Source: Methanohalophilus mahii DSM 5219 | GTDB taxonomy: Archaea > Halobacteriota > Methanosarcinia > Methanosarcinales > Methanosarcinaceae | Reading direction: 5' to 3' | Length of the DNA: 64,000 nt | NCBI RefSeq assembly: GCF_000025865.1 | Contig: NC_014002.1 | Span: 1,922,001-1,986,000, forward strand | Program-made: the position numbers and the translations under genes | Notes under the pieces: model-generated | The model's database searches: none | What the model saw: the letters and a program-made list of their open reading frames with translations, nothing else | Told to the model about the DNA's origin: nothing | Shown here: piece by piece, positions 29,655 to 36,437 of the stretch | Layout of the letters: the number at the start of each line of letters is the position of its first letter | Numbering within the stretch: position 1 is the stretch's first letter

Positions 29655-30491
29655 ATGCTGAGAGGACAGATAGAGAGTTTCATCCGGGAAGACCTGGGTT
29701 ATCATGATATCTCATGCCAGATGGTGCCGGACACAATTGCAGAAGCAGTGATTTTTGCAAAGCAGGATTGTGTGGTTGCCGGTGTGGAAGTTGCAGAGGC
29801 CATATTTGATTATTTTGATATCGAATATACAAGAAAGATTGCAGAAGGAGAAAAGATTCAGAATAACGGTGTGGTCTTTGAACTTAAAGGGAGAACGGTA
29901 TCCCTCTTACGTGCTGAAAGGCTGGCCTTGAATTTCCTGGGACACCTGAGTGGTATCGCGACCCTTACAAGAGATTGTGTGGAAGCTGTGCATGAGTGTT
30001 CTGAAGCGGTTGTGGCTGCAACCCGTAAAACAACCCCGGGAATCCGGGAGTTCGAGAAACTGGCTGTAATTGCAGGTGGAGGTGACCCACACAGGTTCAA
30101 TCTATCCGATTCCATCATGATAAAGGACAACCACAGGCATATAATGGGTCTGGAAAATGCAATCCTCAAAGCAAAGGAAATGGCAAGCTTTACCCAGAAA
30201 ATAGAAGCTGAAGTTGAATCCGCAAACGATGCCCTTCTGGCTGCAAGAATGGGAGTGGACATCGTTATGCTGGACAATATGTCCCCTTCAGAAATTATAT
30301 CAACCGTGGAGAAATTACGTCACGAAGGATTAAGGAATAAGGTAATCGTGGAGGTATCGGGAGGGATAAACACCGAAAACCTTGCAGAATATGCAAAAAC
30401 GGGAATTGACGTAATCTCTATGGGCTCCCTGATCCATAAAGCACAATGGGCCGATCTGAGTATGGAGATGAAAGAGTCTTTTATGTCATGA
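29655..30491 (+). CDS. nadC: Nicotinate-nucleotide pyrophosphorylase (quinolinate phosphoribosyltransferase)
   Basis: This 278-residue enzyme converts quinolinate and PRPP to nicotinate mononucleotide. It has the ATRKTTPGIREFEKLAV motif, GGGDPHRFNLSDSIMIKDNH, EVEVES-type EAEVESAN and the C-terminal VEVSGGINTENLAEYAKTGIDVISMG. The frame runs 33 codons further upstream, but ATG 29655 is preceded by GGTGA and matches the family N terminus (RGQIESFIREDLGYHD). The nadX start is about 100 bases away on the other strand. It is the last conserved gene before the AT-rich island. Confidence 0.93.
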   Translation: MLRGQIESFIREDLGYHDISCQMVPDTIAEAVIFAKQDCVVAGVEVAEAIFDYFDIEYTRKIAEGEKIQNNGVVFELKGRTVSLLRAERLALNFLGHLSGIATLTRDCVEAVHECSEAVVAATRKTTPGIREFEKLAVIAGGGDPHRFNLSDSIMIKDNHRHIMGLENAILKAKEMASFTQKIEAEVESANDALLAARMGVDIVMLDNMSPSEIISTVEKLRHEGLRNKVIVEVSGGINTENLAEYAKTGIDVISMGSLIHKAQWADLSMEMKESFMS

Positions 30492-30802
30492 ATTCTGTAG
30501 CCGAGTTGAGGTTTCTTCTGTTAGTTTCACCCTGCATAGGACTTCCTTCAAATATTTCGGCCTTAGGGGTGTGTAGAGTTTGGGGAAATGTGGTCAGAAG
30601 GGAGAGAGCAAAGAACCTTTCTCCAATTCGTGGCTCTAAACCTTCCAATTCCGATCCTATTGTAGTTGATACGGACCGGGAAATGAGGAAAGTTAAGAAG
30701 GATATGGATGCTCTCGGGGCCTCCAGACCTGTCTATGTCAGGTCCAATCCACAGAATATGAAGTGGAACAGAGTGATCTGATTAGCCGAGGCTATGAAGT
30801 TT
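30492..30802. other. Non-coding or decayed stretch after nadC
   Basis: No gene is supported between nadC and the left inverted repeat. The forward frame ending at 30781 contains a plausible basic tail (REMRKVKKDMDALGASRPVY) from an internal ATG at 30683, but has no good ribosome-binding site and no family I know. The composition here is nearer the conserved block than the island, so it may be a remnant of the original locus into which the island was placed. Confidence 0.35.
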
Positions 30803-30819
30803 TGGCACACACTCCTTAA
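30803..30819 (+). repeat. Left arm of a 17-bp inverted repeat bracketing a two-gene module
   Basis: TGGCACACACTCCTTAA at 30803-30819 recurs as its exact reverse complement at 32619-32635. The repeats continue imperfectly inside (GTACC appears after each, at similar spacing), and GAAG precedes both outside. The two arms enclose about 1.8 kb with exactly two genes. No transposase is present between them. Confidence 0.7.
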
Positions 30820-30896
30820 GTAAGTACCAAATGGAAATAAAAGGAACAATCATTTCTTGTTGTAAGAAATATCCATAACGCAAATGATTAATATAT

Positions 30897-31442
30897 TTAT
30901 TCTTGTTGATGATTAGGTATTCCATGCAGAATAAAATAAAAATTAGTTATGTTCCGAACATTTAGTAACAATACTTGTGAAATAAGATATATATTTATTG
31001 CAATTATTAAATTAATGTTATTAGTTACAAGCGGAACTCCATAAGATGCTAATAACAAAATAACCATGTTAAACACAAGAGCAATAATTTCAGAAAATAA
31101 GGTGATAATAAACCATATATTCATTAATTGATATAAGTTAATCTTCACTTCTTCTATTATTCTATCTGTTTCCACTTTAAGTTCATCACGACTGTTTGCT
31201 AATATAGTTACAGTTGAAATTGTAAAGCCTATTAATATAGATAATAAAATTATTACGCTAGGAAATAATTGATCAATATTTTTAGTCGGGATAGTAAAAT
31301 CAAAATAAATAATCAAAAAGTAACCGATAGCCCCAAATATTAAAGGTAAAACTATATCCCATATTTTTTCTTCTCGGGTAGCTACAGTAAAATAATGCTC
31401 TATAGGATATGTGAATTCTAGATAGATCTTATCATACCTCAT
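30897..31442 (-). CDS. Four-helix membrane protein of a possible abortive-infection pair
   Basis: This 181-residue protein has four hydrophobic helices (about residues 28-50, 62-84, 110-140, 146-173), a short N-terminal cytosolic segment and little else. Its start codon overlaps the last 11 bases of the upstream 289-residue gene, so translation is coupled. The gene is very AT-rich compared with neighbours before 30500. The layout of soluble protein plus small four-helix membrane protein resembles lambda RexA/RexB and the Kiwa pair in architecture only; no sequence homology is claimed. It may be an ion channel-like effector or a membrane anchor. Confidence 0.65.
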   Translation of the reverse strand: MRYDKIYLEFTYPIEHYFTVATREEKIWDIVLPLIFGAIGYFLIIYFDFTIPTKNIDQLFPSVIILLSILIGFTISTVTILANSRDELKVETDRIIEEVKINLYQLMNIWFIITLFSEIIALVFNMVILLLASYGVPLVTNNINLIIAINIYLISQVLLLNVRNITNFYFILHGIPNHQQE

Positions 31443-32301
31443 CTATAACATTAGATAAAATTTTGAACAAATGTGTTGAATTAACAAGTCCTGTATCTTC
31501 TATCAAATCTACATCAACTTTTCTGATAAAAGCATCACTATTTGTATCAATATGAATTGCCGCATCATTAAAAGATTTGCCTTCAACTCTTATCCTTGAA
31601 ATTACTCCTTTTTTTCGGAGTTTGTCGAATTTCCTAACAAGGGTTTTTGAAATGCTTTCTCCACGATGGCTTTTGTATGTCATTTCTAAATCTTCTCTTG
31701 TTGAGTCTAAATCAAGTCCAGCATAACCCATTTGTTCAGAACTAATTATTTTTTTATCAACAAATATGCTTCCAGTCGTGATTCGTTTAAAATCATTTAA
31801 TCTTTCTAAAAACGATTCTAGAACAAGCACATCCCATTCTAAAAAATATTGGTCTTTTTCTGGGTAAGATCTGATAAAGCTATTTAGATAACTTTGTATT
31901 TGATTTATAGTAACCCCTACCGCTCTTTTTTCAAGAGCCATAATAATTTCTTTATTGTCAGTTCTAGTTATTAGATGTGTAAGTTCTGCTTCACCTTCGT
32001 GTATATTTTTGGGATTTTCTCGTTTTAATCCAGTAGTTTCATCTACAAGGAAAGGTCTATGTCCTGTTTTAGCAGATTCAAATATAATTTCTTTTTTTTC
32101 GGAGCCGTTGCTATCTGCTAAATAATAAAATTTATTCGAAGTAGCCAGTTCCATTCTTTTATCACTGAATGATTTATTTGATATGTTAAAAAGAAGAGAA
32201 TTATAATATTCAATAAGTTTTTTTCCACTTAATATATCATTATCTTTTTCGTGCCTAAATCTAACAATGTACAATCCAATACTTCTGGTACTTACACTCA
32301 T
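31432..32301 (-). CDS. Cytosolic partner protein of the membrane module, family unknown
   Basis: This 289-residue protein without membrane segments opens MSVSTRSIGLYIVRFRH. Around residues 100-145 it has a block with EGEAELTHLITRTDNKEIIMALEKRAVGV that reads like a common beta-sheet domain of phage-associated proteins. The C-terminal third (about 190-260) is basic and charged (SISKTLVRKFDKLRKKGVISRIRVEGK), suitable for nucleic acid binding. It is the first gene of the pair. By position it could be the sensor partner, as RexA is for RexB, but this is inference from size, order and location. Confidence 0.6.
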   Translation of the reverse strand: MSVSTRSIGLYIVRFRHEKDNDILSGKKLIEYYNSLLFNISNKSFSDKRMELATSNKFYYLADSNGSEKKEIIFESAKTGHRPFLVDETTGLKRENPKNIHEGEAELTHLITRTDNKEIIMALEKRAVGVTINQIQSYLNSFIRSYPEKDQYFLEWDVLVLESFLERLNDFKRITTGSIFVDKKIISSEQMGYAGLDLDSTREDLEMTYKSHRGESISKTLVRKFDKLRKKGVISRIRVEGKSFNDAAIHIDTNSDAFIRKVDVDLIEDTGLVNSTHLFKILSNVIDEV

Positions 32302-32800
32302 GTATTAATCCCTCAACGGATAGTAAATTATATTTGCAAACTCATCTTACTAAAAATTTATTCGCCAAAACACATTTTATCAATAGTATAATTTCCATAT
32401 GTTTTGTGATGTGACATTGAATTTAAGAAAACCCTGCACTATTTCCACTCGAACACAAAAATGTCCGGTGTGGCAAAAATAATCCCTCTATTTTTACTCC
32501 ACAAATCGTCTGATAGTGATTTCTAAACCAATCCTTTTCCAAAATACCCAGATACCCAGCATTTGCGCTGCTGCGCAGCGCCTCTGGTTTTGATTCCGCA
32601 GTACCCTTAGGTACACGATTAAGGAGTGTGTGCCACTTCTGGCAGACACAAAAAATAACCGTTCTAGAATTAAAATAAAAATTCCAGTCGAAAAAAGGGA
32701 TAAGGAAAACTTCTAGAAACTGAAAAGTTAGTAAAAATACTCACTCTTGTATAATGCTCATTCTTTAGATTCAAAATTTCAAATTGTTACAAGCACAAAA
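32302..32800. other. Intergenic region with repeat structures
   Basis: No gene is seen in these 499 bases. They hold a GC-rich hairpin at 32565-32581 (GCGCTGC / GCAGCGC around TGC), a second at 32601-32614 (GTACC / GGTAC), and the right inverted repeat arm at 32619-32635. A GC-rich hairpin in such AT-rich sequence looks like part of a mobile-element end. Promoter-like AT-rich sequence precedes the 289-residue gene. Confidence 0.5.
32619..32635 (-). repeat. Right arm of the 17-bp inverted repeat
   Basis: This is the exact reverse complement of 30803-30819. Just inside lies the GTACC / GGTAC stem. With the left arm it defines the ends of a cassette of about 1.83 kb. No target duplication could be confirmed outside the arms, where only a short GAAG is shared. 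Confidence 0.7.
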
Positions 32801-34531
32801 TCATTCATGAAAGTCATGTTCTTCTAATTTTTTATTTATACATTGGACAAATCCATTGGCTTTAGCTATATTTATTATGTTTTTATCAGGATTTTCATTG
32901 ATATAATCTTCAAGTATACTCTCAAATAATTCAAAGGCTTCTTTAATTGTATTGCAATCTACATTTTCAACATTCAGATCCTTTATATCTTCAGAATCAT
33001 ATTCGTTTTTGCAAGTCAAGATCGACGCTAAGATTCTGGAACAATGGAGTGTGAAGTTTTTGATTCTGTTTCTTTCATCAGCAGACTCTATTCTTTTTAT
33101 ACAATCTTTTACCTTTTGATGTATCAAGCAGCAATTTAAAAATGATTGTATGTTATCTTTATCAAATATTTTATTGTAAGAGGTGTCTTCTTTTATCAAA
33201 GTTGTTGGTTTAGACCTTGCTCTTGCTGGCCCAAAATTTAAAATTGCTTCTATTGCTTGGGCAGTATCTTGTATATTAAAAATCTTACTTGCTGGTTTGC
33301 CTTGATTCTTGTAATAATTTTTTCTTCTATCGTAATAATAGCCTTTATTTCCGAACAATATTTCTATATTTCGGTGTATTTCTCCTGTAGCTCTTAATAA
33401 AGTTGGAGATACAGGGTTTTGACTGTTGGTAGCAAAAATAATATTATCTATTGTCTCTTTTTGCGTACTACGAATTACTTTGACCAAAATTGACCTATGG
33501 TCATCATTTACTGCTAAATCATCAAATTTACTTATAGTATATGATGTTTGCAATCCATTCACAATTTTGACATCATCTATAAATAAAGTCTTGTGCATTA
33601 AGTTACAATCCGAACCTATTATAGTTATTCCATTATTTAACCACCAAAAATCTTGAGATGAATTATGCTCTAAGGTCTCTGCAATTTTTTGATTTACATC
33701 AGCAGTATCGCCTTGATAATGCCGTATATTACTTTCAAACAAATATTCTCTTATTTTATTCTCTTTAATGTCAACGATAAATTTATAGTAATCAGCAAGA
33801 GTAACTACCCCTAGATAACCATCTTCTTCTTGGTTTCTTCCTTGAATAGTAATCGGTGTTTCATTAAATACTAATTCTAGTTTAGTGTGTTGGGGTTTGC
33901 TGTATAATTCAATTAATTCCTTTGCACTGTATAAATTAAAATTTATATTGCCGGTATTTACCCTTTCTTTTGTTAATGCAACTATTTGATCAACTTTTAG
34001 TCGGAAACTACCATTTACATTGGTGTCTTCAGCTTTGCAAGAATAAGTAAAATTGATTGTAAATTTTGATTTTTTTCTAACCGAACGTTTCCATATATTT
34101 CTAAACAGCAGTATCTTTTCAACCAACATAGGATTAAATCTCTTTGATAATAGATTTTCTTCCAATTCTAAATCTAATATCTTTTCTAAAGAAATATACA
34201 ACTTATCCAATGCATTTTCCTTAAAACTATTCTCAGTTTTTGCTTGAGAAATATAGATAATTATTTCTGTACTCTCATTAAACGTAATTTCTTCTATGTC
34301 TTCTTCGGTAAAAACACTCGTATCATTTACTAAAATAATAAATGAGTCAATACCACCATCTCCCCCACCGTCAACAATGGAATCTTCAATTTCAGAATAT
34401 GATGTATCTAATTCTCTAGTTATGTATAATGACGAAAATATTTCCATTATTTCATCATATGATAGATCTAACCAGTTTTTTTCTTTAAACTCTTGAATGC
34501 ATTCATTTAAAATAATTTTATTATTCATCAA
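32801..34531 (-). CDS. AIPR-type abortive infection protein with nuclease-like N terminus
   Basis: This 576-residue protein belongs to the AIPR (abortive infection phage resistance) family. Signatures are NIRHYQG (about 268-274), FWWLNNGITII (about 295-305) and IVNGLQTSY (about 323-331), typical of the AIPR core. The N-terminal 100 residues carry GDGGID (57-62) and ISQAK (94-98), spaced like a PD-(D/E)xK nuclease catalytic pair (D...QxK). Such proteins stop growth of phage-infected cells. It is very AT-rich, on the same strand as the two-gene module, and lies between that module and an insertion sequence, so it is part of a transferred defence island. Confidence 0.82.
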   Translation of the reverse strand: MMNNKIILNECIQEFKEKNWLDLSYDEIMEIFSSLYITRELDTSYSEIEDSIVDGGGDGGIDSFIILVNDTSVFTEEDIEEITFNESTEIIIYISQAKTENSFKENALDKLYISLEKILDLELEENLLSKRFNPMLVEKILLFRNIWKRSVRKKSKFTINFTYSCKAEDTNVNGSFRLKVDQIVALTKERVNTGNINFNLYSAKELIELYSKPQHTKLELVFNETPITIQGRNQEEDGYLGVVTLADYYKFIVDIKENKIREYLFESNIRHYQGDTADVNQKIAETLEHNSSQDFWWLNNGITIIGSDCNLMHKTLFIDDVKIVNGLQTSYTISKFDDLAVNDDHRSILVKVIRSTQKETIDNIIFATNSQNPVSPTLLRATGEIHRNIEILFGNKGYYYDRRKNYYKNQGKPASKIFNIQDTAQAIEAILNFGPARARSKPTTLIKEDTSYNKIFDKDNIQSFLNCCLIHQKVKDCIKRIESADERNRIKNFTLHCSRILASILTCKNEYDSEDIKDLNVENVDCNTIKEAFELFESILEDYINENPDKNIINIAKANGFVQCINKKLEEHDFHE

Positions 34532-34701
34532 TATCCCTTTTAGTTTTTGTATTTCCTAATTATCATTCTTTTATAAATATTATAAACTCATCGATTATAC
34601 TAAATGAAATAATATTTCCGGCTAATTGTTGATATTATTGTCACTTTTAATTGATCGAGTGAATGTAATCCTTAAAATATAAGCAATGCTTATAAAATTA
34701 T

Positions 34702-34709
34702 TTAATTTT
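34702..34709 (+). repeat. Target-site duplication, left copy
   Basis: TTAATTTT lies directly outside the left inverted repeat of the insertion sequence, and the same eight bases follow the right end at 35713-35720. An 8-bp direct duplication is what transposition by some IS5 subgroups leaves behind. It shows the element's ends are 34710 and 35712. Confidence 0.85.
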
Positions 34710-35601
34710 GGCTCTGTAGAAATCCTTATTTGAATAATTACTGAAACAGAGATTGCCCTGTCTATATTATGAATTAACAATTTGAACTTAACTTCTTTCA
34801 CCTGATTTCTGTATTTTGTTGCCCTCAATTCTTCTCTATACTTCCTTTTCAAAACAGAAAACATCGTCTCTACCAGATTTCTATAATAATAGATGTTTGC
34901 ATCAAATTCATCTCTCATTTTTCGACGGTATTTTCCTTTGATCTTCTTCCTTTTCTACATCTTACAGGTATGATGGCTTCTGCTTTCAATTCTTCATTGA
35001 TTAGAGCATGTATCTTCTCAGAATCATATCCTTTATCCATCAGATAACAATCAGCTTTTCTCCTTTTGTGACATTGTCTAAGCAATGCCTTTGCATGTTT
35101 TGCATCATGTACAGGTTTACCTGAAATCTTAAAACCAATTACAATGAACTTCTCAACATTAACAGCTAGACTTGTTTTCAGATACGACCGTCTTTTTTTT
35201 CCTGTTCTCACAGAATAATAGTAACTACAATGTCCTCCTGTAAATCCACTTGAATCAATAGCAACCAGAGGTATTTTTTCACCATGTGAATAGAAGAGTT
35301 TCAGAGTTTGGTGAAGTAAGCTATTGAAATAAAATGAATATATTCTATTGGTAAATTTATGTAATGTTGTGAAGTGAGGTGCGTGATTTATACCAATTTT
35401 GGATTGGACTCCTTCCATTAAATCAATAAGTTGGACATACTTTCTATAATCTTCATTTATGTACTCTTTGAACAATACCAATGCCAGTAACTGGTGTTGA
35501 GTATATTTTCGTTTGGAATACTTACAACTGTAGATTGGAAGATGAGATCTTCCAGCTACAGACATAGCTGTATCGATAAAGTTAAAGTAATCGCTTGACA
35601 A
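34710..35601 (-). pseudogene. IS5-like transposase split by a frame change
   Basis: Part one starts at TTG 35601 and carries Asp116 (AIDSSGF) and Asp189 (LMDKGYDS). It leaves the transposase frame near 34944-34950 and stops at 34915. Part two continues in the -1 frame as KIKGKYRRKMRDEF and holds the catalytic Glu in RNLVETMFSVLKRKYREEL. The joined translation is a complete DDE transposase. The break is in a purine run (GGAAGAAGA), consistent with a one-base deletion; no classic slippery heptamer is evident, but programmed shifting cannot be excluded. Part two has no stop inside the element: it reads through the terminal repeat to 34622 in host DNA. Confidence 0.75.
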
Positions 35602-35712
35602 AACACATTCATCCCCTTTGTGTTTTTTATGGTCAAAATCACATTGGGGACTTCTTCTTATAAAAATAATAATGTATTAGTGGAAGTTAGAGGAAAGGGT
35701 TTCTACAGAGCC
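34710..35712 (-). mobile_element. IS5-like insertion sequence, 1003 bp, with 16-bp terminal repeats and 8-bp duplication
   Basis: The ends are GGCTCTGTAGAAATCC (34710-34725) and its complement at 35697-35712, matching at 15 of 16 positions. TTAATTTT flanks both ends as a target duplication. Inside is a DDE transposase read on the reverse strand but split over two frames. Length about 1 kb, terminal GG, an 8-bp duplication and a DDE motif with Asp, Asp, Glu fit the IS5 family in a broad sense. The intact duplication argues the insertion is fairly recent. Confidence 0.85.
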
Positions 35713-36437
35713 TTAATTTTCAGTATTTTTTAGTTTTTCTTAATGATTGTTTTGCATAAGGAGGCTTAAGTTTGTTGAAAAATATTTAAAAAAACCAAAT
35801 AATTCATATAGGCCATTCAATGAATAAACAGCCCCATTCTCATCGTATAAAGCCCGTTGGTCACCCCATGATGCAATCTTTTTGTTTGAATCATGTGATT
35901 TTTGATGAGTAAAACGAGCCAAAAATTACAATGATTCATGTACGACTTGCCGAGTAATACATTATTAGTTACGACTCTGCAAGATGAGTCGGGCGATCTA
36001 TGAGAATCAATAAGTCACTAATTCCATGTTCCAGGAAAAGTACGCCGTTACCTGCCCTGCAGGCTACGGCCAAGCGTAATAAATGTGTCTGAAAGGCATA
36101 TTTCACATCCAGTCATCAACAAAAGTATCCATTTTTTATACAACAAGTGTAGTAACAATTACATAAAATTTGTAATTTTTAGATGTGTCTCTATTATTCA
36201 CAAAAAGGTGATTGTTCTACACTTTTTTCTACCTTATTTAGTGTATGTAGTATCGTAAGAATAAATACTCATGACAGACCTCTATTATACGTGTACTTTT
36301 TTAACCCAACCTTAGCAAGGTGAAAGTGATTTTAACTCGGGCTACAGTTTTATGTCATAAACTTTATATTGGTTTCCAGTAGTGTATTTAGGCAGTATTT
36401 AGATAACAAATTATGAAAAAATCGTGGCGAGGGGAAC
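35713..36437. other. Long non-coding stretch between the IS and the secreted-protein gene
   Basis: About 725 AT-rich bases show no supported gene. The first eight bases are the right target duplication. Bases about 35941-36100 are less AT-rich and give a short open frame from ATG 36000 of 30 codons (with PLPALQATAKRNKCV), looking like a decayed gene or element end. From about 36300 onward lies the promoter and leader of the secreted-protein gene, with GAGGGGAAC before its ATG at 36438. Confidence 0.4.

Follow-up and report, generated by a model that had tools for sequence, protein, structure and literature searches.

What do two small, overlapping genes do in a stretch of AT-rich DNA of Methanohalophilus mahii, a salt-loving, methane-making archaeon, and how did they come to lie there? 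An original prediction, made from the sequence alone, had read them as an archaeal-type abortive-infection pair resembling RexA/RexB or Kiwa and moved as a unit by the inverted repeats around it. Here we examine the two proteins, their relatives and the DNA that carries them. We use "window" for the whole stretch of 64,000 nucleotides that was analysed, and positions are those of the window. The following features concern the pair and its immediate neighbours.

30803..30819, plus strand: left arm of the 17-bp inverted repeat, part of a partial copy of a conserved element (30800-30836, minus strand)
30897..31442, minus strand: RexB-like four-helix membrane protein, 181 aa (AlphaFold model; a homologue lies 3' of the soluble gene in every relative)
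31432..32301, minus strand: RexA-like soluble protein, 289 aa (AlphaFold, Foldseek, and a 41% identical relative in genome G177)
32430..32654, plus strand: conserved non-coding element with its core at 32546-32644, also found in varied contexts in other Methanosarcinaceae
32619..32635, minus strand: right arm of the inverted repeat, within the conserved element
32801..34531, minus strand: AIPR/AbiU abortive-infection gene (Pfam 5e-54, PADLOC 4e-165)

A RexA-like fold and its four-helix partner

The layout is as first described: two genes, for 289 and 181 aa, lie between perfect 17-bp inverted repeats, the start of the 181-aa gene overlapping the end of the upstream 289-aa gene by 11 nt. The GC content is 0.29-0.31 over the pair versus about 0.45 in its surroundings, and the adjoining gene is indeed an AIPR gene by Pfam and AbiU by PADLOC. 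Searches of Pfam, PADLOC and NCBIfam gave weak chance matches, and no meaningful one, for either protein of the pair. Structure prediction, one of the checks proposed with the original prediction, gave a match for the soluble protein. The AlphaFold model of the 289-aa protein, built with 23 sequences, has moderate confidence (mean pLDDT 71.6), and its sole significant Foldseek match among 350,542 PDB chains is lambda RexA (8TWQ). Chains B and A of that structure rank first and second (E 2.7e-6 and 2.4e-4, probability 1.00), with an alignment of 294 columns that covers nearly the full length of the protein; the next match is unrelated (E 0.074). Superposition of the model on 8TWQ is poor (TM 0.32, rmsd 18 Å), so the fold match rests on 3Di and sequence scoring. 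A differing domain orientation is a possible cause. In the published structure of RexA, hinge and swivel loops connect a split globular domain to a dimerisation domain built from four strands and four helices, and a large domain movement has been proposed for the protein (PMC11077077). The order of elements in our model fits this layout, with a sheet in the N-terminal half, then four strands and four helices that form a middle domain, and a C-terminal part that returns. As modelled, the 289-aa protein has the two-domain fold of RexA. At the level of sequence, the family profile aligns colinearly with four RexA sequences over 141 columns, a weak result (E 0.0092 for one comparison), and neither the window protein nor any of its 15 relatives matched the RexA model PF15969 at E values of up to 1.

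The 181-aa protein was modelled with a mean pLDDT of 80.9. The model has four long helices (residues 23-47, 53-83, 103-133 and 143-173), preceded by a short N-terminal helix, which agrees with the four membrane helices first proposed. The fold search returned no significant solved-structure match for this model, the RexB model PF15968 did not match the protein, and comparison of its profile with the RexB profile fell short of significance (E 0.094). As in RexAB, however, a small four-helix membrane protein is encoded directly downstream of the soluble one.

How close, then, is the pair to the known systems? Lambda RexA/RexB (PF15969/PF15968; 8TWQ) shares the fold of the first protein and the small four-helix membrane protein encoded directly downstream. 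The two differ in that lambda RexB has 144 aa, whereas the window protein has 181 and an extra N-terminal helix, and in that the rex genes lie beside the cI repressor in a bacterial host, whereas the window pair is not beside cI and its host is an archaeon. No repressor gene was recognised among the open reading frames of the island that carries the pair, as would mark a prophage immunity region; location beside the CI repressor is itself not universal among RexAB-type pairs (PMC11077077). Other described pairs also join a soluble, RexA-like DNA-binding protein to a four-helix protein and act in abortive infection, namely Sbash gp30/gp31, CarolAnn gp44/gp43 and Pseudomonas putida PP_5643/PP_5644 (PMC6426596, PMC6426606, PMC11077077, PMC12894663), and the membrane proteins of Sbash and CarolAnn have 165 and 178 aa. 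The CarolAnn proteins belong to other PHROG families (36224 and 38328) and have no significant profile match to the family of the window pair. Because fold, pairing and topology agree while the tests against PF15969 and PF15968 failed, we file the pair as one that works like RexAB, not as a member of the RexA and RexB sequence families.

Relatives in Clostridia, phages and one other archaeon

The pair is rare among archaea. We found it in one of 393 other genomes of the phylum (394 sampled, the window genome included), a member of the same family (G177), where the two genes are adjacent and encode 289 and 183 aa; the soluble relative is 41% identical to the window protein. Most relatives that we found are clostridial or phage-borne, so the "archaeal type" of the original prediction does not hold. 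In G177, a gene adjoining the pair (L073:8423-9535) encodes a protein whose N-terminal 100-140 residues match PADLOC models of defence endonucleases or effectors (best PDC-M68A, 5e-27); the same gene has a weak peptidoglycan-binding match.

By tblastn, the soluble protein was weakly connected to a gene of Roseburia phage Jekyll that is annotated as RexA-like, with a gene for 188 aa behind it. When viral contigs and plasmids were scanned with the window protein as a single query, nothing convincing came up. One scan of bacterial and archaeal genomes gave 21 loci, all in clostridial or closely similar gut bacteria, judging by their record titles. Each of the 21 has, at -3 to +4 nt from the soluble gene, a second gene whose 176-182-aa product is predicted to have four membrane segments. 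The same two-gene order, with an offset of 9 nt, is seen in four loci of phages or other viruses, and a Monoglobus plasmid carries two adjoining genes of matching sizes. Wherever a phage, plasmid or archaeal copy was read over its full extent, the membrane gene stands directly after the soluble gene. The two genes thus occur together, and their separation in other genomes, which was to count against the original prediction, was seen in none of the 21 bacterial, the phage, the plasmid or the archaeal copies. The trees of the two proteins also mirror each other (r 0.975, with none of 5000 permutations as high).

Profile models tie these copies into one family. The Jekyll pair matches both PHROG 4672 and PHROG 4613, the archaeal relative (L006) matches the same two models (8e-17 and 4e-9), and an Anaerostipes-type soluble protein (L016) matches PHROG 4672. 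These families of unknown function, represented in Roseburia phage Jekyll and Anaerostipes phage AC844P2, are of the same family as our pair, although the window proteins are too diverged to match the two models directly. Of 16 soluble relatives, six have a weak to moderate match to the PADLOC defence-candidate model PDC-M53A (best 1.5e-5); the window proteins match no PADLOC model, this one included.

The setting of the bacterial copies is consistent. Directly upstream of the pair in 19 of the 21 loci lies a res-like gene (712-745 aa), usually with a mod-like gene before it, and in the remaining two the contig ends upstream of the pair. The 19 of 21 should not be read as 19 independent events, since the loci are akin to one another and were picked out by sequence patterns; when aligned, the res proteins share 72-94% identity with the first of them. 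PADLOC identified the sampled upstream gene pairs as type III methyltransferase and type III restriction enzyme. In these gut Clostridia (L037-L057, e.g., L040:899-6418) the pair forms the tail of a mod-res-A-B operon, in which the homologous genes have the same order and overlap. We found no description of this four-gene association in the open-licence literature. A sequence deposited as a fecal bacteriophage clone (L008, MT838221.1, 830-5530) carries mod and res, together with the beginning of the soluble gene, and is 99% identical to L051; for these reasons it is probably a fragment of such a bacterial operon. The copies in the window, the archaeal relative and the phages, unlike the clostridial operon, lack restriction-modification genes. 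A non-defence setting elsewhere was likewise to speak against the prediction, and the relatives lie in type III restriction-modification operons of Clostridia and in phages.

It is tempting to see in these copies a distinct branch of the RexA fold, which would serve as the built-in abortive-infection arm of clostridial mod-res-A-B operons, firing on failed restriction or on a restriction-modification signal, and would also travel alone on phages and archaeal islands. We offer this tentatively and put it slightly short of an even bet.

How the pair may act

We consider it probable that the pair is an abortive-infection system of the RexAB type, in which a RexA-fold sensor activates a four-helix membrane effector. 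The 289-aa protein would be the sensor, probably dimeric and, by analogy with the studied pairs, DNA-binding. Viral infection would trigger it, and it would in turn activate its 181-aa partner, perhaps directly. The partner is expected to open or damage the cytoplasmic membrane, whereupon the ion gradient would collapse and growth would stop before virus is released. There is precedent for such a mechanism in lambda, Sbash, CarolAnn and P. putida (PMC6426596, PMC6426606, PMC12894663, PMC11077077). In lambda, DNA binding and exclusion do not go hand in hand (PMC11077077), which makes the sensing step uncertain.

The grounds that we count as established are the RexA-like fold, the obligate coupled pair, the four-helix topology, the co-evolution of the two proteins and the defence settings of the relatives. 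Against them we count the archaeal host, the poor superposition, the moderate confidence of the model and the lack of family-model matches. The central idea of the original prediction has therefore gained a RexA fold, obligate pairing with a four-helix protein and defence settings, but not a match to the RexA or RexB sequence models.

The main rival uses the same parts with control of the opposite sign. The membrane protein would be a constitutive pore toxin restrained by the RexA-like protein, and infection would free it. Overlapping, coupled genes, with the soluble gene first and a small membrane protein second, are what such a toxin-antitoxin pair might look like. In P. putida RexAB, however, the closest studied system, overproducing the soluble protein sets off its membrane partner and does not silence it (PMC12894663), and we regard the toxin-antitoxin reading as unlikely. 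A sensor that activates its membrane partner stays our preferred reading.

The island that carries the pair and its wider meaning

How did the pair reach this locus? Alignments with four sister genomes (G001, G003, G005 and G007) show a clean empty site that joins window position 30492 straight to 36348. The relevant features are as follows.

30479..30489, plus strand: left direct repeat TTTTATGTCAT, 11 bp, in the 3' end of nadC
30490..36347, no strand assigned: whole inserted island, 5.87 kb, absent from G001, G003, G005 and G007 and reduced in G004
30495..30507, plus strand: left terminal inverted repeat, CTGTAGCCGAGTT, at the island end
30647..30778, plus strand: C-terminal remnant of a DUF7845 protein (16/41 identical, E 6e-10 for one comparison)
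34622..35601, minus strand: IS5-family transposase, split in two frames (34915-35601 and 34622-34918)
36334..36347, minus strand: right terminal inverted repeat, AACTCGGGCTACAG on the plus strand, at the island end
36348..36358, plus strand: right direct repeat TTTTATGTCAT, 11 bp, at the island flank

Each of the four empty sites has one copy of TTTTATGTCAT. Direct repeats thus flank the island and a single intact target is present in relatives, as in an integrative element, and an inverted pair of CTGTAGCC(C)GAGTT sits at the island ends. A fifth relative, G004, has a reduced island whose ends are the same; it holds the conserved element and other cargo, but neither the pair nor AIPR. No integrase was found among the island's own open reading frames. 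The DUF7845 remnant has its counterpart in a protein encoded in an integrase-bearing element of G011, with which it shares the DUF7845 end. There, two copies of the conserved element lie in the same orientation 16.9 kb apart (L074-L075; C1:2378296 and 2395228), with two tyrosine integrases, a DUF7845 gene and a DUF2326 gene between them; this 16.9-kb stretch is possibly an integrated element. From the empty sites, the direct repeats, G004, and the G011 element with the DUF7845 remnant, it follows that the pair most likely came in as cargo of an integrative element, now decayed, at the 3' end of nadC.

AIPR was considered as part of the same unit as the pair and was ruled out. It looks separately acquired because it is absent from G004 and lies with the IS5 remnant between ACAAAAA repeats, which at 32648 and 36200 enclose AIPR/AbiU and the split IS5 (window 32648-36206). 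Together these look like a second, nested insertion.

The 17-bp inverted repeats likewise do not bound a mobile unit. In the inverted repeat TGGCACACACTCCTTAA, 17 nt match perfectly, and a longer match of 32 nt holds at 81%. No further copy occurs at up to two mismatches in the 2,012,424-base genome (one contig), and no dinucleotide shuffle of the window gave two repeat matches, so chance would not be expected to produce it. The original prediction had the repeats moving the pair as a unit, but the empty sites lack the whole of 30490-36347, no site lacking exactly the inter-repeat segment was found, and G004 has the right-arm element without the pair. The repeats are therefore ruled out as ends of a mobile cassette. 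The arms are also not equivalent: the right one lies in the conserved element of about 100 bp, and the left is part of a partial copy of only 37 nt. This partial, inverted copy (window 30803-30834) sits beyond the far side of the pair. In the archaeal relative, a repeat search (L073) found only imperfect AT-rich pairs, none of which bounds the pair likewise.

The conserved element has a wider distribution of its own. It is about 100-220 bp long and occurs in Methanosarcinaceae mostly in single copy and in changing surroundings (the window; L018, L022-L036); at up to one mismatch it matches 15 of 112 family genomes, the window genome included. Its core (32546-32644) comprises a GC-rich hairpin, a T-rich stretch and a palindromic GGTACACG...TGTGTGCC. 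Three pairs of the hairpin have compensatory changes, with a covariation term of almost nil. It may be an RNA gene, a terminator or a recombination site; the reading as a known RNA family was rejected, as Rfam has no match at the element.

If the island is decayed, is the pair itself dead? On this reading the pair would be left over from a dead integrative element and inactive in this strain, in keeping with the remnants around it (the DUF7845 end, the frame-split IS5 and the lack of an integrase) and with its presence in only one of the other genomes sampled from the phylum. Both reading frames are intact, however, and align along their length to relatives of roughly 16-43% identity, so that we think a dead passenger improbable. 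A housekeeping or transport pair apart from defence, for which we found nothing beyond weak chance matches, is scarcely credible given the patchy distribution (1/393), the low-GC island with its empty sites, and the restriction-modification and phage contexts. The comparison with Kiwa (KwaA membrane protein plus KwaB), drawn in the original prediction for its similar plan of a soluble and a four-helix membrane protein, falls away as highly improbable, with no Kwa model among the PADLOC matches of the window proteins or their relatives and no Kwa protein among the fold-search matches listed for either protein.

An abortive-infection pair of the RexAB type remains the reading we favour. A DefenseFinder survey recorded RexAB in Proteobacteria only and named limited models as a possible reason (PMC9090908). 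The known range of this classic but little understood system would grow with a RexA-fold pair, overlooked by current sequence models, that occurs in an archaeon and in a type III restriction-modification operon of gut Clostridia. In the mod-res-A-B operon, restriction and cell suicide would be naturally paired and, if these copies do form a distinct RexA-fold branch, the archaeal ones would extend RexAB-type immunity to archaea.
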